This document shows, one piece after another, positions 1,098 to 32,938 of a DNA stretch of 45,928 nucleotides. How positions within the stretch are numbered: the first letter of the stretch is position 1; every line of letters starts with the position of its first letter. The notes beneath the pieces are model-generated. The model did not search any database and was not told where the DNA came from. It worked only from the letters and a program-made list of their open reading frames with translations. The stretch is from positions 1 through 45,928 of the forward strand of contig NZ_JALKFX010000075.1 in the NCBI RefSeq assembly GCF_023243045.1, written 5' to 3'. The position numbers were made by a program, and so were the translations under genes. The DNA is from Frankia sp. AgB32. Lineage in GTDB: Bacteria > Actinomycetota > Actinomycetes > Frankiales > Frankiaceae.

Positions 1098-4000
1098 CTA
1101 TGGCCGCAGGACGAGGAGCAGGTCGCCGACCTCGACGGAGTCGCCGCTGGTGCGGACGAGCTCCGCGACGGTGCCGGCAACCGGGCTGGTGACGGCGGCC
1201 TCCATCTTCATCGCCTCGACGACGGCGAGCTTCTGGCCGGCGGCGACGGTGTCACCGGGGGCGACGACGAAGGTGACGATGCCGGGCAGGCCGGCGCCGA
1301 TCTGGTTCGGGTCGCCCGCGTCGGCGCGCCGGGCCGCGGTGGTGGTCGCGGTGATCGACGCGTCGCGGACCCGCACCGGCCGGGGCTGGCCGTTGACTCG
1401 CAGGTAGAGGGTCCGCATGGCGGTGTCGTCCGGCTCGGACAGGGTCTCCAGCTCGACCATGATCTCGACGCCGGTTTCGAGGGTGACGCCGACGGGCTGC
1501 CCGGGGCGCAGGCCGTACAGGTAGCCCTCTGTCGGGATCACCGACGAGTCGCCGTAGCTGTCGACGGCGCCGAGGTAGTCCTTCCACGGGCCGGGGAACA
1601 GCAGCCGGGACAGCGCGGCGCGCCGGCGGGTGCCACCGGCGGCGAGCTCGTCGGCGTCGGCGGCGTCCAGCGCGGCGTTCGGTGGGGCCGGGTGGCGCCC
1701 GGCGAGCGCCCGCTCGCGGAACGGCTCGGCGAAGCCGGCGGGCGGGGTGCCGAGCTCCCCGGCGAGGTAGCCGAGCACGCTGGCGGGCAGGTCGTAGCGT
1801 TCGGGGAACTCGCGCAGCGTGTCGACGTCCACCGAGCCGCCGACCAGGAACAGCGCGAGGTCGCCGACGACCTTGCTGGTCGGCGTAACCTTGATCGGCT
1901 TGCCGAGCAGCTCGTTGGCGACCGCGTAGGCCTCCTGGACAGCCGGCCAGCGGTCGCCGAGGCCGAGGGCGATCGCCTGCTGGCGCAGGTTCGTGAGCTG
2001 CCCGCCGGGGATCTCGTGGCGGTAGACGGCGCCGGTGGGCGCCCGCAGCCCGGCCTCGAACGGCGCGTACAGGTCGCGGACGGCCTCCCAGTAGGCCTCC
2101 ATCGACGACAGCGCCGACAGGGCGATGCCCGTGGCCCGCGGGGTGTGGTCGGTCGCGGCGACCAAAGCCGACATGTTCACCTGGCTGGTGCCGCCGGACA
2201 TCGGAGCGGCGCAGGCGTCGACGGCGTCGACCCCGGCTGCCGAGGCCGCGAGCAGGGTGGCGAGCTGACCGCCGGCGGTGTCATGGGTGTGCAGGTGGAC
2301 GGGCAGGTCGAACCGCTCGCGCAGCGCCGTGACCAGCGTCGACGCGGCGGTGGGACGCAGCAGCCCGGCCATGTCCTTGATCGTGAACACGTGCACGCCG
2401 GCGGTGGCGAGCTGGTCGGCGAGGCGCAGGTAGTAGTCGAGGGTGTAGATCTGCTCGCCGGGGTCGGACAGGTCGCCGGTGTAGCAGAGGGTGCCCTCGG
2501 CGATCGCCGTGCCGGTCTCCAGAACGGCCTCGATCGCCGGGCGCATCTGCTCGAAATCGTTCAGCGCGTCGAAGATCCGGAAGATGTCGACGCCGGTGGC
2601 GGCGGCCTCGGCGACGAACGACCGCACCACGTCATCCGGGTACGGGGTGTAGCCGACGGCGTTGCGGCCGCGCAGCAGCATCTGCAGGCACATGTTCGGT
2701 GCGGCGGAGCGCAGCGCCGCCAACCGCTCCCACGGGTCCTCGGCGAGGAAGCGCAGCGCCACGTCGTACGTCGCCCCGCCCCACGCCTCCAGGCTGAGCA
2801 GGTTCGGGGTGAGCGCCGCGAACGTCGGCGCGGCCGCCAGAATGTCGAAGCTGCGCAGCCGGGTCGCGAGCAGCGACTGGTGGGCGTCACGCAGGGTGGT
2901 GTCGGTGACGGCCAACGTCTCCTGCGCACGCAGCCGGGCCGCCCAGCCGGCCGGCCCGAGCTCCGCGAGCAGCTGGCGCGAGCCGGCCGGCACGGCCAGT
3001 CCGGCGCCGACCGGCGCGCCCGATCCGACCTCCACGGTCGTGGCCACGCCAGCCGCCGGCGACGGCAGTTCGGGCAGGCGGATCCGCGGGTCGACCAGCG
3101 GCGTCGCCGGGCGGGCGAAGCCGTTGACGGTGCTCTGCGCGAGCCGGGCGAGCATGCGGCTGGTGCGGTCGGTGCCGCGGCCGGGCGCGAGCAGCTCAGG
3201 CCGCTCGTCGATGAACGACGTGGTCACCCCGCCGTCGAGGAAGTCGGGGTCGGCCAGCAGCATCGACAGGAAGTCGATGTTCGTCCGGACGCCGCGGATG
3301 CGGAACTCGCCCAGCGCCCGACGGGCACGGCGGGCGGCCTTCTCCAGGGTGCCGCCGCGGCAGGTCAGCTTCACCAGCAGCGAGTCGAAGTACGGGCTGA
3401 CCTCGGCGCCGGCATACGTCGCCCCGTCGAGGCGGACGCCGGGGCCGCCTGGCGACTGGTAGAAGCTGATCGTGCCGGTGTCGGGCCGGAAGCCGTCCGA
3501 GGGGTCCTCGGTGGTCACCCGGCACTGGATCGCGGTGCCACGCAGGGTGATCCGTTCCTGCGCCAGGTCGAGGTCGGCGAGGCTCTCCCCGTTGGCGACG
3601 CGCAGCTGCGCCGCGACGATGTCGACGCCGGTGACCTCCTCGGTCACCGTGTGCTCGACCTGGATGCGGGGGTTCATCTCCATGAAGGTGTAGCTGCCGT
3701 CGGCGCCGAGGAGGAACTCGACGGTGCCGGCGTTGACGTAGCCGACGTGCCGGGCGAAGCGGACCGCGTCGGCGCAGATGCTGGCGCGCAGGGCCTCGTC
3801 GAGGCGCGGCGCCGGGGCGATCTCGACGACCTTCTGGTGGCGGCGCTGCACCGAGCAGTCCCGCTCGTACAGATGGATGATGTTGCCGTAGCCGTCGGCG
3901 AACACCTGGACCTCGATGTGCCGGGGCCGGGTGACCGCCTGCTCCAGGAACACGGTGCCGTCGCCGAACGCCGCGGCGGCCTCCCGGGACGCGCTGCCCA

Positions 4001-20413: not shown

Positions 20414-22012
20414 TCAAGACGCGAAGGGTTCCATACCAGTGCCGGGCAGCAGGACGCGGAAGGCGGTTCCCGTGCCGACGATGCTGGTGACCTCGACGAG
20501 GCCGCCGTGGGCCCGCGCCGTCGCGTCGACGATCGACAGTCCGAGGCCGCTGCCGCCCCGGCCACTCGCCCGACTGTCCGGCGCGCGGTAGAAGCGGTCG
20601 AAAACGTGCTCGGCGACCTCGGGCGGCATGCCCGGGCCGCGGTCGATGACGTCGAGCACGGCCCCCAGAGCAGGCGGAACGGGCTGCGGCGACGGCGACG
20701 GCCCGGCGGCGACAGCCGGGTTCGTCGCCGCCGGTGGGATCGGGCGCAGGCGGATCTCGACCGAGGCGTCGGGTGGGGTGTGGACGCGGGCGTTGGTCAG
20801 CAGGTTGCCGACCAGCTGGCGCAGCGCGTCGGCGTCACCGAGGACGAGGCAGGTCGCGGGGAGGTCCGCGTGCACCGGGCGATCGGGGGCGGCGGCGCGC
20901 AGGTCGGCGACCGCGTCCCGGACGATGGCAGCGAGGTCGAGCTCGGTGCGCCGCGGCGGGTCCGCAGTGCGCCGCGGCGCACTGCGCCCCGACGGATCGG
21001 GCTCCGACGGGTGGGCCAGTTCGTCCAGGTGGGCCAGTTCGTCCAGGTGAGCCAGTTCGTCCAGGTGGGCCAGTTCGTCCAGGTGGGCAAGGTAGAGCAG
21101 GCCGTCTACCAGGGTGCCCATCCGGACCGCCTCCTCCTGGATGCGCCGCAGGGCGGTGTCGGCGTCGGCCGGTGGGGCCATGCCGGACCGCAGCAGGTCG
21201 GCGTAGCCGCGGATGGAGGTCAGCGGGGTGCGCAGTTCGTGGGCCGCGTCGGCGGCGAAGCGGCGTTCCTGTTCCTGGGAGGCGATCCGGTCGGCGAAGG
21301 CGGTCTGGATCTGGCCGAGCATCGCGTTGAGGGCGGCGGCGAGCTGGCCGGTCTCGGAGCGCGCCGGGCCCGGGGGGACCCGCAGGTCGAGGTCGCCGGC
21401 GGCGATCGCGGACGCGGTGCCGATCATCTGCCGCAACGGGCGCAGGCCGCGGCTGAGCCAGAACCAGGCCAGCACCGCCATGATCACCAGGACGGCGCCG
21501 CCGACCGCGGTCTCGACCCGCACCAGTCGGCGCACGGTCTCCGTGACCGGACGCAGCGGCAGCGCGACGAGCACCCGGGTGCTGTCCGGCAGTGTGCGCT
21601 GCACCGCCCGGTAGCGGTCGCCGCTGGCCACGACGGTGAAGGGCGCCGAGAGCCCGGACGCCCCGGGCCGGCTCTGGCCGGCGCTCGCCGCCGCGTCCAG
21701 CAGCCAGGTGCTCGGCGGCGGCGGACTGGCCGAACCGGTCACCCGCAGCATCCGGCCGTCCGCGCCGCGAACCTCCACGAGATAGTCGGTGGGGCCGGCG
21801 GCGCGTTCGAGCCGGGCCTGTTGCAGCGCCCCCGCCCGGGCGATCAGCGTCGCCAACGGCATACCGCCCACCAGTTCGCGGCGGGTGAGCTGCTGGTCGA
21901 CCCGGTCGTACAGGTAGGAGCGCAGCGCGAAGGCGCTGGCCGCGCTGGCGGCGGCGAGGCCCAGTGCGCACAGGGCCACCAGGCCCGCCATGAGCTTCAG
22001 CCGCAGCGTCAT
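20414..22012 (-). CDS. Sensor histidine kinase (HAMP-HisKA-HATPase)
   Basis: A 532-residue membrane kinase. TM1 is at residues 7-30, an extracytoplasmic sensor at about 35-160 and TM2 at about 165-190, followed by HAMP (about 190-245). The HisKA domain has the phospho-acceptor motif AHELRTPLTSIRG, and the ATPase domain has N (LVGNLLTNARVH), G1 (DRGPGMP) and G2 (GGSGLGLSI) boxes. A tandem HLDELA x4 insert at the end of the second dimerisation helix is unusual (separate entry). The TCAT overlap with the regulator stop (ATG at 22012, TGA at 22011-22009) indicates translational coupling. This is a regulator-kinase operon of the TrcRS/MprAB general type; the signal is unknown. Confidence 0.9.
   Translation of the reverse strand: MTLRLKLMAGLVALCALGLAAASAASAFALRSYLYDRVDQQLTRRELVGGMPLATLIARAGALQQARLERAAGPTDYLVEVRGADGRMLRVTGSASPPPPSTWLLDAAASAGQSRPGASGLSAPFTVVASGDRYRAVQRTLPDSTRVLVALPLRPVTETVRRLVRVETAVGGAVLVIMAVLAWFWLSRGLRPLRQMIGTASAIAAGDLDLRVPPGPARSETGQLAAALNAMLGQIQTAFADRIASQEQERRFAADAAHELRTPLTSIRGYADLLRSGMAPPADADTALRRIQEEAVRMGTLVDGLLYLAHLDELAHLDELAHLDELAHLDELAHPSEPDPSGRSAPRRTADPPRRTELDLAAIVRDAVADLRAAAPDRPVHADLPATCLVLGDADALRQLVGNLLTNARVHTPPDASVEIRLRPIPPAATNPAVAAGPSPSPQPVPPALGAVLDVIDRGPGMPPEVAEHVFDRFYRAPDSRASGRGGSGLGLSIVDATARAHGGLVEVTSIVGTGTAFRVLLPGTGMEPFAS
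21011..21082 (-). repeat. Four 18-bp in-frame tandem repeats (HLDELA)
   Basis: Four consecutive 18-bp units, identical except for one G-to-A change in the third (21047-21064), encode HLDELA four times on the minus strand. The array sits between LLYLA of the HisKA second helix and a Pro/Arg-rich linker. Six-residue units with two leucines would extend an amphipathic helix. Confidence 0.9.
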
Positions 22013-27892: not shown

Positions 27893-28978
27893 ATGACGAC
27901 AACGACCGGCCGCCGCCCCGCGGTGGCCGCCCATCCCATCCCGCCGCCCGAGCGCGTCGCCATCGACGTGCGCGGCCTGACGAAGCGGTACGGGCGGCGG
28001 ACCGTTGTCCGTGGCCTGGACATCACGATTCCCGAGGGGGCGGTCGCGGGCTTCGTCGGGCCCAACGGCGCAGGCAAGACGACGACGCTGCGGATGCTGC
28101 TCGGCCTGGTCCGGCCCAGCGGCGGGCAGGGCAGTGTCCTCGGCGAGCCGCTGCGGTCGCCGGTGGCCTACCTGCCGCGGGTCGGCGCGCTGATCGAGAG
28201 CCCGGCGCTCTACCCGGCGCTATCCGGCCGGCGTAACCTCGCCGCCCTCGCTGCCCTCGCCGGGCTGGACCGCGGCCAGGCGTCGGCGCGCGTCGAGGCG
28301 ATCCTGGACCAGGTCGGGCTCGCCGGTCGCGGCGACGACCGGGTGCGGTCCTACTCCCTGGGGATGAAGCAGCGCCTGGCCATCGGCGCGGCCCTGCTCA
28401 CCGACCCGGACCTGCTCATTCTCGACGAGCCGACGAACGGCCTGGACCCGATCGGGATCCGGCAGATGCGGGAACTGATCCGCTCGCTCGCGACCCGGCC
28501 CGGGCCTGACGCGGCCGAGCCGACCGCCGACGCGCGGGCGGACCGCGGCCGGACCGTGCTCGTCTCCTCCCACCTGCTCGCCGAGGTGGAGCAGATCTGC
28601 GACTGGCTGATCGTCGTCGAGGGCGGCCGGCTGGCCTACCAGGGGCCGACCGACCGGCTGATGGCGAGCCAGACCGTCGAGGTCGTCCTGCGCCCGGAGC
28701 ATGACGAGGACGTCGCCCCACTCGCCGATCTGCTCGCGGGCCTGGACCTGCCGGCGGTCCGCCGGGCGGACGCCGTGGTGGCCGGTCTCGCCACGGACCC
28801 GGACGACCCCCGGGCGTACACCCGGCTGCTCGCCGCCGTGAACCGGGCCGCAGCCTCCCGCGGGATCACCCTGATCGAGATGACGCCACACCGCCACAGC
28901 CTCGAGGACCGCTACGAGGGTCTGGTCGCCCAGGCCGCCGCCGAGCCCCGCGGCACCGATCAGGAGACCAGCCGATGA
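27893..28978 (+). CDS. ABC transporter ATP-binding protein (exporter type)
   Basis: A 361-residue cytoplasmic ATPase subunit of an ABC-2 exporter (drug or antimicrobial-peptide resistance group). It has Walker A GPNGAGKT (56-63), Q-loop region replaced by LPRVGALIES, signature YSLGMKQRL (about 155), Walker B LLILDEPTNGLD and the switch His in LVSSHLLAEVEQ. Between Walker B and the switch there is an extra low-complexity stretch (RPGPDAAEPTADARADRG), longer than usual. The C-terminal 100 residues form the accessory domain seen in BcrA-like proteins. ATG 27893 gives a short Thr/Pro leader. Its last codons overlap the permease start (ATGA). Confidence 0.93.
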   Translation: MTTTTGRRPAVAAHPIPPPERVAIDVRGLTKRYGRRTVVRGLDITIPEGAVAGFVGPNGAGKTTTLRMLLGLVRPSGGQGSVLGEPLRSPVAYLPRVGALIESPALYPALSGRRNLAALAALAGLDRGQASARVEAILDQVGLAGRGDDRVRSYSLGMKQRLAIGAALLTDPDLLILDEPTNGLDPIGIRQMRELIRSLATRPGPDAAEPTADARADRGRTVLVSSHLLAEVEQICDWLIVVEGGRLAYQGPTDRLMASQTVEVVLRPEHDEDVAPLADLLAGLDLPAVRRADAVVAGLATDPDDPRAYTRLLAAVNRAAASRGITLIEMTPHRHSLEDRYEGLVAQAAAEPRGTDQETSR

Positions 28979-29796
28979 ACCTCGTCCTGGCCGTGCGACG
29001 CTCGTTCCGGGCCGAACTGATCAAGCTGTGGCGCCCCAGCACGGTGGTGGGGATGGGTCTGCTGGGCGCGCTCACCGTGCTCTCGACGGTCCTGATCGTC
29101 AGCCTGGCCGATCCGGCCCGGCCCCGCACCCGGCCGGTCGAGGGTCCGGCCGGGTTCGCCGTCACGACCGACCAGCTCGCCACGGCAACCGGGATCGCCC
29201 GTGGCTTCACCGGCGGCAGCACCTTCACCGGACTACTGATCTTCCTGGTCTTCGCGATCACCATCACCCTCGAGTACAGCCAGGGGACGCTGCGGACGGT
29301 GTTCCTGCGCGAACCCCGCCGGCTCGGCTGGCTCGCCGGCCGGCTGGCGGTGATGTTGACGCTGGTCGCGGTCGCGCTGGCGGCGGCGCTCGCGCTCAGC
29401 GTCGGCGTGGCATACGCCGTCGCGCGGATCCGCGGCATCGACACGGGCGCCTGGTGGAGTGCCGACGGCGCCGCCGCGCTCGGGTCGGGGTACGGCAACG
29501 TCCTGCTGGCGTCGACGTTCTTCGGGGTGGCCGGCACCGTGCTCGGGCTCGTGCTGCGCTCCACCGCGCTCACGCTGGCGGTCGGCGTGGCCTGGCTGTT
29601 CCCGCTCGAACACATCGTTCAGGGCTCGTGGCGCGGCGCGACCCACGTGTTTCCGGGTCTCGTCTTCGACGCGGTGGGGCAGGGCGGCATCGCCGACGCG
29701 AGCTACGGGACGGCACTGACCGTCAGCCTGGCCTACGCGCTTGGAGCTGCGGCGTTGGGCGCGGTCACGCTGACACGCCGAGACGTCACCGCGTGA
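28975..29796 (+). CDS. ABC-2 type permease
   Basis: A 273-residue integral membrane protein with six predicted helices (about residues 22-45, 80-100, 125-150, 170-190, 195-215 and 245-265). The N-terminal RRSFRAELIKLWRPST and the segment ITLEYSQGTLRTVFLREPRR, which has the shape of a coupling helix, are typical of ABC-2/BcrB-like permeases. It pairs with the overlapping ATPase gene to make an exporter, presumably a homodimer of each subunit. The substrate is unknown; the two-component system immediately upstream suggests it responds to an envelope-active compound. Confidence 0.9.
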   Translation: MNLVLAVRRSFRAELIKLWRPSTVVGMGLLGALTVLSTVLIVSLADPARPRTRPVEGPAGFAVTTDQLATATGIARGFTGGSTFTGLLIFLVFAITITLEYSQGTLRTVFLREPRRLGWLAGRLAVMLTLVAVALAAALALSVGVAYAVARIRGIDTGAWWSADGAAALGSGYGNVLLASTFFGVAGTVLGLVLRSTALTLAVGVAWLFPLEHIVQGSWRGATHVFPGLVFDAVGQGGIADASYGTALTVSLAYALGAAALGAVTLTRRDVTA

Positions 29797-29887: not shown

Positions 29888-29914
29888 ATGGCCGCTGGAC
29901 GTTCACCACGGTGA
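29888..29914 (+). CDS. Candidate 8-residue leader peptide (MAAGRSPR)
   Basis: ATG 29888 is preceded by AGGGAGA at 7-nt spacing, the best RBS in this gap, and the 8-codon frame ends at TGA 29912-29914. That stop overlaps the GTG start of the J-domain gene (29911). Ribosomes finishing the leader would therefore be placed at the downstream start. The frame could instead be a misread start region, but no in-frame upstream start exists for the J-domain protein. Confidence 0.45.
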   Translation: MAAGRSPR

Positions 29915-30585
29915 GCCCGTACGATCGGTTGCTTCGCGAGCTCGGCGACTCCGACGCGTACGACGTGCTCGGAGTGAGCCGCCGAGCGGACCGCGCCGAG
30001 ATCCGCCGGGCCTACCGGGCGAAGGTCCGCGCCCACCACCCGGACAGCCCCGTCAGCCGGGGCCCCGAGTCGGTCCGCACGATCCAGCTCGTCACCGCCA
30101 GCCGTGAACTGCTGGAGAAATGGCGGGACGACTACGACGCGCGCCCAGTCGTCCCGCCGCCAGCCGAGCCAGGCCAGACCCGACTCGGAGCGACCGCGCG
30201 CCACCACCCGGTCCCCCCTCCTCCCCGGACAACGGCCTGCCTCTGGACGGTGCCCACCCAGCACTTCCCGCAGGCCCAGCACTCCCCGCCAACCCGAAAC
30301 GCCGAGCCCGCCGCGGCGGATCCGTCACCCCGCCCGCACAGCCACCGGGCGCCGCGGGTGCACGACCACCTGGTGCTCTCGATCGTCGCCACGATCCTGT
30401 GCGCGCCGATCGGCGCGGTCGGCCTGGTGCACGCGATCCGGACGGCCGACCTGCTCACCCACGGCGATCTCGAGGCTGCCCGGCGGCGCTCGCGGCTCGG
30501 CCGGACCTGGTCGCTGACCGGCACCGTGGTCGGGGCGATCCTCGTCAGCGTGCTGAGCTACGCCGGCGGCCACGCCCCCGGCTGA
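29911..30585 (+). CDS. J-domain - CD225/dispanin-like membrane protein
   Basis: A 224-residue protein joining two domains not usually seen together. Residues 14-70 form a DnaJ J-domain: AYDVLGV, RRAYRAKVR and the HPD tripeptide (43-45) required to stimulate Hsp70 ATPase. Residues 75-143 are a Pro/Thr/His-rich linker. Residues 145-220 resemble CD225: a first membrane segment (HLVLSIVATILCAPIGAVGLVHA-type), a charged loop with G-D-L-E-A-A-R, and a second membrane helix. The same loop pattern (GD-x-x-x-A) occurs in the two CD225 proteins nearby. It could recruit Hsp70/DnaK to the membrane (inference). GTG 29911 is the only usable start and overlaps the leader stop. Confidence 0.75.
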   Translation: MSPYDRLLRELGDSDAYDVLGVSRRADRAEIRRAYRAKVRAHHPDSPVSRGPESVRTIQLVTASRELLEKWRDDYDARPVVPPPAEPGQTRLGATARHHPVPPPPRTTACLWTVPTQHFPQAQHSPPTRNAEPAAADPSPRPHSHRAPRVHDHLVLSIVATILCAPIGAVGLVHAIRTADLLTHGDLEAARRRSRLGRTWSLTGTVVGAILVSVLSYAGGHAPG

Positions 30586-30662: not shown

Positions 30663-31367
30663 GTGACATCAGAGGGCTCGCCGGTCGGACGTCGCGTCGT
30701 GCTCGGGATGCTCACCCTGGGCGCCGTCGGCGTCGCGTTCGGCGGGCGCGCCGAGCAGGCGGCCGAACGGGTCATCGCCCCGATCCGGCGCGGGGACCCG
30801 ACGGGGCTCACCGACCTCGTGCCGGTGGGCGGATTCCGGTATTACTCGGTGACCTCCAGTGTGCCGAAGCTTGGACCCGCCGACTACCGGCTGCGCGTCC
30901 ACGGCCTGGTCGACCAGGCCCGCACGCTGTCGCTGGCCGATCTCAGCGGGATGCGGCAGACCACCCTCGTCCGTGACTTCCAGTGCGTCACGGGCTGGCG
31001 GGTGGACCACGTGCGCTGGTCCGGGGTGCTGCTGAGCGACCTGCTCGCCGCGGTCGGCGTCCAGCCCTCGGCGCGGGCACTGACACTGCGCTCCTTCGAC
31101 GGCAGCTACACCGAGAGCCTCACCCTGCCCCAGGCCACCCGGCCGGACGTGCTGGTGGCGCTGCGGATGCTGGACGCGCCGGTGACCTATGACCACGGCG
31201 GGCCGGTCCGGCTGTACGTGGCACCGATGTACGGCTACAAGTCGATCAAATGGCTGGGCGAGATCGAAGCCGTGGGGGCGGTCGAGCCCGGTTACTGGGA
31301 ACGTCGCGGCTACGACGTCGACGGTTGGATCGGGCGCTCGAACGGCCGCGACGATGACCCGGCCTGA
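30663..31367 (+). CDS. Molybdopterin-dependent oxidoreductase (sulfite oxidase/MsrP-like)
   Basis: A 234-residue enzyme with the sulfite-oxidase molybdopterin fold. The molybdenum-ligating cysteine is Cys108 in DFQCVTGW. Conserved features are RLRVHGLV, the VRWSGVLLSDLL helix, YTESLTL and the C-terminal GYKSIKWLGEIE. The N-terminus has twin Arg before a hydrophobic stretch (RRVVLGMLTLGAVGVAF), consistent with Tat-type export or a membrane anchor. The size and partner resemble MsrP/YedY periplasmic reductases, which take electrons from a membrane heme protein. That partner is the next gene, overlapping by 14 bp. GTG 30663 has only a weak RBS. Physiological substrate not known. Confidence 0.87.
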   Translation: MTSEGSPVGRRVVLGMLTLGAVGVAFGGRAEQAAERVIAPIRRGDPTGLTDLVPVGGFRYYSVTSSVPKLGPADYRLRVHGLVDQARTLSLADLSGMRQTTLVRDFQCVTGWRVDHVRWSGVLLSDLLAAVGVQPSARALTLRSFDGSYTESLTLPQATRPDVLVALRMLDAPVTYDHGGPVRLYVAPMYGYKSIKWLGEIEAVGAVEPGYWERRGYDVDGWIGRSNGRDDDPA

Positions 31368-32449: not shown

Positions 32450-32938
32450 TCAGACGGAGACGGGTCCGAGCGTCGAGTACGACGAGCTCGAACTGCTGCT
32501 CGTGCTGAACCCGCCGGAAACGCCCACAACAATCAGAATGATCAGGGGCACGAGCGCGGCGACAGCCGAGATGATGCACCACAGGCGCGCCTTCCTGGAT
32601 GCGTCGAGGGCGCCGTCAACGTCGCCCACCGCCCGGCGGCCGTCGACCTTGGTGGCATAGATGATGGCGACGACACCGGCCGGCAGGCAGCACAGGACCG
32701 TCACCACGATCGACTGCCACAGGTAGTTCGGGACGGGCTGGCCGTACGGCGGCGGCGGGCCGAACCCGCCCGGGCCGCCGTAGTTCGGTGCCCCGTAGCT
32801 CTGCGGCGCACCGTAACCACCCGGGGGCGGGCCGTACCCCTGCGGAGCGCCGTACCCTCCCTGGCCATAACCGCCCTGGCCCTGGTCGTAACCACCCTGG
32901 GGATATCCGCCCGGCGGGTACTCGGGTGGCTGGGACAT
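32450..32938 (-). CDS. CD225/dispanin-like protein with Gly/Tyr-rich N-terminus
   Basis: A 162-residue protein. Residues 1-70 are a low-complexity Gly/Tyr/Pro/Gln domain with GGY and YGAP repeats, of the kind that phase-separates or sticks to itself. Residues 71-140 are a CD225-like domain with NYLWQSIVVTVLCCLPAGVV, the loop GDVDGALDASRKARLW and a second membrane helix. A Ser-rich tail ends the protein. It shares the LWQS..V..LCCLP core with the downstream gene, so one probably arose from the other by duplication. ATG 32938 has GGAG upstream. It is the first gene of this two-gene operon. Confidence 0.85.
   Translation of the reverse strand: MSQPPEYPPGGYPQGGYDQGQGGYGQGGYGAPQGYGPPPGGYGAPQSYGAPNYGGPGGFGPPPPYGQPVPNYLWQSIVVTVLCCLPAGVVAIIYATKVDGRRAVGDVDGALDASRKARLWCIISAVAALVPLIILIVVGVSGGFSTSSSSSSSYSTLGPVSV

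Follow-up and report, generated by a model that had tools for sequence, protein, structure and literature searches.

A conserved gene in Frankia fuses a J-domain to a CD225 membrane domain and may encode a membrane-tethered Hsp70 co-chaperone

Frankia sp. AgB32 carries a gene that joins an N-terminal J-domain to a C-terminal CD225 membrane domain, a relative of the IFITM proteins that act against viruses in humans, and this fusion is real and conserved. The likeliest reading of the fusion is that the protein would recruit Hsp70 to the membrane. We propose, with a confidence that is about even, that it may be a class C J-protein, membrane-tethered, that recruits DnaK to CD225-containing membrane sites. 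The window, that is, the whole stretch of DNA analyzed, comprises the 45,928 nucleotides of contig NZ_JALKFX010000075.1, and its fusion was compared in an alignment (A1) of 12 fusion proteins, nine of the main form and three divergent (L043, L047, and L048). The gene and the parts of its product are as follows.

29911-30585, forward strand: J-CD225 fusion gene, an open reading frame spanning exactly these positions, 224 aa, GTG start
29917-29943, forward strand: N-terminal helix predicted ahead of J helix I (residues 3-11), helical in the AlphaFold2 model; R6, R9, and L11 invariant in 12/12 fusions
29953-30129, forward strand: J-domain (residues 15-73), PF00226 at 39.9 bits, pLDDT blocks 82-96
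30037-30045, forward strand: HPD tripeptide (residues 43-45), the same in 12/12 fusions
30142-30354, forward strand: proline-rich linker, 70 aa, low model confidence
30361-30549, forward strand: CD225 domain (residues 151-213), PF04505 at 55.3 bits
30373-30429, forward strand: first hydrophobic helix (residues 155-173), Kyte-Doolittle 2.41
30430-30513, forward strand: arginine-rich loop with G-D motif (residues 174-201), 6 R/K and 3 D/E
30514-30570, forward strand: second hydrophobic helix (residues 202-220), borderline, Kyte-Doolittle 1.60

The initial annotation had proposed a J-domain with an HPD tripeptide followed by a CD225-like C-terminus, and Pfam bears out both: the DnaJ match has an E value of 4.5e-10 and clears its cut-off of 27.8 bits, while the CD225 match has an E value of 7e-15 against a cut-off of 27.1 bits. 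No zinc finger or DnaJ C-terminal domain was found in the window protein by Pfam at E up to 1. Taken with the J score and the HPD tripeptide, the absence of these extra DnaJ domains points to the class C J-domain type. Sequence searches of the PDB with the window protein likewise returned J-domains (best E 1.1e-6). The start codon sits at a common position, at or within one codon, in the 12 fusions and is GTG in nine of them. Just upstream, at 29888-29914 on the forward strand, an eight-codon ATG frame follows AGGGAG, and its TGA stop and the GTG with which the fusion begins overlap as GTGA; the sister protein L037 has the same eight-codon upstream frame, but with a GTG start. Translational coupling of this frame with the fusion is possible. 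Promoters and terminators were neither found nor expected.

How widespread is this architecture? The fusion is intact in nine of 13 Frankia genomes (G000, G002, G003, G005, G007, G009, G010, G011, and G012), while in G008 only the linker end and CD225 part are visible, cut by the contig end. It is absent from three of the 13 (G001, G004, and G006), in which stand-alone CD225 genes remain. A second, divergent J-CD225 gene lies elsewhere in G011 and G012, and a third divergent relative was found in G022, from another genus of the same family. All 12 proteins match both DnaJ and CD225 at E up to 0.01, and HPD, Y35, and R36 are identical throughout. Among the six fusions with Pfam scores, all exceed the DnaJ cut-off and five exceed that of CD225; the sixth, L048, reaches 24.6 bits against 27.1, and 27.6 in another search of the same locus. 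A J profile (A2) built from 10 fusion J-domains and L062, whose own rows score high by construction, gave at least 110 bits at 12 places in 10 of the 35 family genomes, the next best score being 55; across the class (296 genomes) the gap runs from 110 to 66 bits. This gap below the rows of the profile is real.

CD225 itself was detected in 78 of 246 genomes surveyed in the class and in 23 of 296 in the phylum, and in neither survey did J and CD225 share one frame outside Frankia and G022. In the class survey, custom J and CD225 profiles were used to read those CD225 matches that exceeded the cut-off and lay in open frames of 150 aa or more; four below-cut-off matches with such frames (G138, G193, G201, and G248) were left out, and frames shorter than 150 aa were read at part of the loci only. 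The phylum survey read 24 loci (L165-L188), and six further rows were loci already read in the class. Other phyla were covered by a pattern scan only, tuned to the J-domain of the window, which independent fusions would escape. The survey of proteins sharing both domains, which the initial annotation had suggested, thus yields 12 fusion proteins restricted to Frankia and G022 in the surveyed genomes. By tblastn at E up to 0.001, no phage or plasmid record held the whole fusion: two of 50,697 phage records and two of 72,556 plasmid records match, with one domain each. A phage or plasmid origin was rejected, since no such record covers 80% of the window protein. The single locus from the scan of viral contigs encodes a DnaJ that also has the DnaJ C-terminal domain. 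MT839860.1, a record filed as phage and derived from a human faecal sample, contains a CD225-like segment at 3514-3729 on the reverse strand, with 31.5% identity to fusion residues 153-224 (E 4e-6).

Estimates of dN/dS range from 0.12 to 0.52 for the J-domain, from 0.05 to 0.52 for CD225, and from 0.49 to 1.07 for the linker, and both domains lie below the linker in 11/11 pairs. These values derive from synonymous and non-synonymous counts in 11 of 66 possible pairs, with branches shared among pairs and no significance test. Purifying selection is stronger on the J-domain and CD225 than on the linker, and by these sequence comparisons the CD225 part is constrained as a functional domain would be. 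Could the gene be a chance open frame or the product of a mis-joined contig? High G+C DNA yields many long spurious frames. However, eight further genomes share the architecture, including three that are single contigs (G003, G005, and G010), and both domains are under purifying selection. Recurrence in eight further Frankia genomes, together with domain dN/dS below that of the linker, means that the fusion is not chance; an artefact is refuted on these grounds, and we attach next to no probability to it.

The genes around the fusion are arranged as follows.

28975-29796, forward strand: upstream gene without a Pfam match, presumed to encode an ABC permease because an ABC ATPase gene adjoins it
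30663-31367, forward strand: downstream Oxidored_molyb enzyme, PF00174 at 132 bits
32051-32443, reverse strand: stand-alone CD225 gene, 131 aa, PF04505 at 76.9 bits, a convergent neighbor
32453-32938, reverse strand: stand-alone CD225 gene, 162 aa, with a Gly/Tyr/Pro-rich N-terminus, PF04505 at 88.7 bits

Two CD225 proteins had been noted about 2 kb from the fusion, and the Pfam scores agree; both genes are convergent with it and lie 1.5-1.9 kb downstream. In eight Frankia genomes the fusion stands between the presumed ABC permease and molybdopterin oxidoreductase genes on one strand, and in the same eight, two stand-alone CD225 genes converge from downstream. This constancy resembles an operon partnership and favors a helper dedicated to the directon that the fusion shares with its neighbors: the protein would assist in assembling either the presumed permease or the flanking molybdopterin oxidoreductase and cytochrome b561. 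A DjlA-type co-chaperone does affect an efflux pump in Caulobacter (PMC10754441). The exceptions speak against it. In G010, a single contig, the permease is reduced to a 31-residue relic (G010:C1:343220-343312) and no ortholog of the oxidoreductase was found (31% identity and E 8e-7 at best), whereas the fusion remains intact; it adjoins a stand-alone CD225 gene, with transposase genes close by. What is left of the oxidoreductase in G008 is a 41-residue relic (G008:C298:514-636) beside the CD225 end of the fusion. Conversely, the fusion is missing from G001, G004, and G006, where the oxidoreductase persists at 81-83% identity, preceded by the permease. Because G010 has lost both flanking genes with the fusion intact, they are unlikely to be obligatory partners. 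The helper role was therefore dropped on the evidence of G010 and G008, and we regard it as very improbable.

No stand-alone CD225 gene was found beside the three divergent forms within the 15-19.5 kb examined. Directly upstream of each, abutting or overlapping its start, lies a gene for a conserved protein (L048 8505-9215, forward; L047 7794-8543, reverse; L043 9054-9308, forward) with no Pfam match in the three cases and none in PADLOC or PHROGs for that of L048. No PADLOC family matched the window protein, either of its CD225 neighbors, or three other fusions at E up to 0.01, and membership of a known anti-phage defence system was rejected for want of a match. Elsewhere in the window, an 18-base tandem repeat of 4.4 copies (21010-21088) lies within a presumed histidine kinase gene on the reverse strand and encodes a repeated AHLDEL.

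The history of the fusion was examined with trees. In that of neighboring genes, the three Frankia genomes without the fusion cluster together (99.3/99), with the fusion-bearing genomes on the opposite side. Given the weak support for the root of this tree (70.3/58), one gain and one loss of the fusion are both compatible with it. A single origin of all fusion forms is one possibility; the J tree needs two changes, with the long-branched L158 intruding, and the CD225 tree needs three, although there the truncated fusion of G008 entered as a stand-alone row (L013). That the CD225 part is a recent duplicate of the convergent CD225 genes was rejected, as the two fall in separate groups of a weakly resolved CD225 tree.

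An AlphaFold2 model of the window protein (nine alignment rows, mean pLDDT 66.3, pTM 0.38) shows a confident J fold, with ten-residue blocks over residues 1-80 at pLDDT 82-96. The structure prediction proposed with the initial annotation is thus clear for the J-domain; the CD225 part is modeled as two long helices (residues 149-183 and 187-220), with blocks 151-220 at only pLDDT 55-74. Confidence in this part is low to moderate, and the model is silent on topology. The top Foldseek matches are J-domains, such as 5nro_B, a J-domain bound to DnaK (TMt 0.81, rmsd 2.2, E 0.042), and no match of the window model fell below E 0.001. Linker blocks 81-150 have pLDDT 36-53, and on this model the linker is probably disordered. 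It measures 70 aa in the window and 75 in L037; in seven other main-form relatives it spans 187-239 aa. A linker motif, SSGHHYSTGY, is present in seven of the 12 fusions; the five that lack it are the window protein, the sister protein L037, and all three divergent forms.

Does the J-domain still act on DnaK? It might be no more than a binding module. In general DnaJ proteins, R-N frequently follows HPD; the window protein reads S-P there, and its J score is modest. Against a loss of activity, HPD, Y35, and R36 do not vary among the 12 fusions, and the J-domain evolves under the constraint given above (dN/dS 0.12-0.52). We consider a binding-only module distinctly unlikely. A DnaK gene is present in the genome (818 bits, contig C262) with a J gene about 1 kb away, and there are further Hsp70-like matches besides this one.

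The fusion resembles the CD225/dispanin family (PF04505; IFITM3, PRRT2, and bacterial stand-alone proteins) in its two hydrophobic helices and basic G-D loop, and differs from it in carrying a J-domain and in the absence of the double cysteine and of A-x6-A. Both motifs are described for dispanins in PMC3282796, and A-x6-A is there among the most conserved patterns. In the family, the double cysteine is frequent but not universal. In the window protein, helix 1 reads LCAP instead of CC, which both CD225 neighbors possess. The A-x6-A motif occurs in none of the 12 fusions: the residue seven positions after A190 is G in the window protein and L037, and C or S in the others. We therefore file the fusion, by profile score, as a divergent CD225-domain protein rather than a canonical dispanin. 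In the window loop, the G-D motif reads THGDLEAA. D186, A190, R191, and W200 are kept in 12/12 fusions; the G preceding the invariant D186 is replaced in L039, L047, and L048. We take the GxxxG oligomerisation motif to lie at this G-D motif. GxxxG is intact at that position in seven of 12 fusions and in the translations of both CD225 neighbors, while the window protein has GxxxA (GDLEA).

The loop between the helices is net positive in all 12 fusions and in 95 of 100 distinct stand-alone CD225s. In the fusions, mean net charge is +2.7 before helix 1 and about 0 in the tail; the stretch before helix 1 is positive in nine, neutral in L043, and negative in L047 and L048. A J-domain meets DnaK only in the cytosol. 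If the J-domain is cytosolic and the positive loop is too, as the positive-inside rule predicts, then helix 1 would not cross the membrane; the sequence favors this topology, provided that the J-domain is cytosolic. The two-helix, G-D loop layout of the initial annotation is present, but the charge pattern indicates that helix 1 need not span the membrane. The same is held for the first helix of IFITM3. In the text of PMC4488726, the first hydrophobic domain of IFITM3 is termed 'intramembrane'.

Membrane J-proteins as such are already known. DjlA of E. coli and Legionella has an N-terminal transmembrane domain (PMC10754441) and interacts functionally with DnaK, and class C J-proteins place Hsp70 at clients (PMC8215388). 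The fusion shares with DjlA an HPD J-domain on a membrane protein; unlike DjlA, it has the J-domain at its N-terminus and a CD225 membrane module at its C-terminus. Against the DjlA equivalog NF006948 (NCBIfam), the window protein scores 33.3 bits, with a cut-off of 162, and only the J part is matched. In eukaryotes, DNAJC22 is a J-protein with a TM2 domain, and DNAJC5/CSP-alpha is a lipid-anchored J-protein that acts on SNAREs. These combine a J-domain with a short hydrophobic module and offer at most an analogy of working principle; their membrane modules are different, and so is the kingdom. Structures of DNAJC5 match the window protein weakly, in the J-domain (E 0.075 and 0.094).

The description of bacterial dispanins dates from 2012; of the 65 identified by then, 43 came from Actinobacteria (PMC3282796). 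Mycobacterial dispanins, once expressed in human cells, act against influenza virus (PMC4488726), and animal CD225 carries a SNARE-like motif (PMC11730294). The portions of these three papers on which we draw describe bacterial dispanins and give no function for them in bacteria, and the term DnaJ is absent from the main text of PMC3282796 and PMC4488726. The initial annotation knew of no description of Hsp70 recruitment to the membrane for bacterial CD225 proteins. Among the matches listed in the open-licence PMC literature, there was no paper on a bacterial J-CD225 protein, and papers sharing CD225 and DnaJ mention CD225 once each under titles on other subjects. The fusion appears to be a variety of membrane J-protein undescribed in the literature searched, with a function that we infer.

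Why should the membrane module be CD225? One explanation is that CD225 is an exchangeable anchor and the fusion a generic membrane-tethered co-chaperone, engaged in general membrane-protein quality control with no CD225 partners. J-domains do precede other hydrophobic segments in relatives, namely L157 of the same genome, L160, L158, and L062, and CD225 in turn occurs behind TIR (L141) and zinc-ribbon (L166) domains. Two points weigh against an anchor only: the constraint on CD225 about equals that on the J-domain (dN/dS 0.05-0.52), and the four invariant residues D186, A190, R191, and W200 go beyond the needs of a bare anchor. We judge a generic co-chaperone somewhat unlikely.

Several of these relatives are of note in themselves. 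L157 (G000:C206) and L062 share with the fusion an N-terminal J-domain followed by two hydrophobic helices; unlike the fusion they have no CD225 match, and a poorly resolved tree places their J-domains apart from the fusion group. L062 (8010-9185, forward), from Catenuloplanes japonicus, has a DUF4190-like part at 30.3 bits, below the cut-off of 35, and the C-terminal hydrophobic helices of L157 (1509-2066, reverse) are DUF3099-like at 22.7 bits against 23.2. L158 (718-1944, reverse) is another J-protein with C-terminal hydrophobic helices, which are unassigned. In L141 (1032-2159, reverse, genome G122), a TIR_2 domain (61.5 bits) is joined to CD225 (32.4 bits, cut-off 27.1), so that a membrane-anchored TIR protein is possible; its PADLOC matches are weak (22.5 bits at best) and are to models named Aga_TIR-PNTD1-PNTD2. 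CD225 stands behind the zinc ribbon in L166 (1441-2163, reverse), and in L177 and L180 it follows a GWYPDP-W-DG-W-T-like segment that presumably resembles DUF2510.

Returning to a co-chaperone at CD225-containing sites, J-CD225 would be tethered at the inner face of the cytoplasmic membrane. Its CD225 part would insert as in IFITM3, with helix 1 lying in the membrane or re-entering from the cytosolic side, the arginine-rich loop in the cytosol, and helix 2 spanning the membrane. The disordered linker would give the N-terminal J-domain the reach to stimulate ATP hydrolysis by DnaK near the membrane, while the CD225 part would pick the site and the clients. Most plausibly, these clients would be the CD225 proteins encoded next door. 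DnaK contact, topology, pairing of CD225 with CD225, and clients are all inferred from the arguments above.

IFITM3 and PRRT2 oligomerise via a GxxxG motif (PMC7665892). Since dispanins can oligomerise in this way, pairing with the neighboring CD225 proteins is the most attractive hypothesis for the client or partner. On the other side, the GDLEA of the window protein and the absence of A-x6-A from 12/12 fusions suggest that pairing with stand-alone CD225s may not be conserved; the location of the divergent forms away from stand-alone CD225 genes also appears to count against it. The more specific proposal, in which CD225 is no passive anchor but J-CD225 joins stand-alone dispanin assemblies and DnaK loads on, remodels, or dismantles them, is one that we hold as doubtful.

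What would the fusion mean for this family? CD225 emerges as a swappable module behind varied N-terminal domains (J, TIR, and zinc ribbon). The J-domain links a bacterial dispanin to a probable cytosolic partner, DnaK, and suggests the side of the membrane on which its N-terminus lies, which makes topology, partner, and client testable. If remodeling of dispanin assemblies by DnaK were true, it would be a bacterial counterpart of the control of SNARE assemblies by J-protein and Hsc70 in animal cells, and bacterial dispanin assemblies would be dynamic, Hsp70-regulated membrane-ordering machines with the topology of IFITM3. The fusion thereby offers a handle on what the bacterial relatives of IFITM do.
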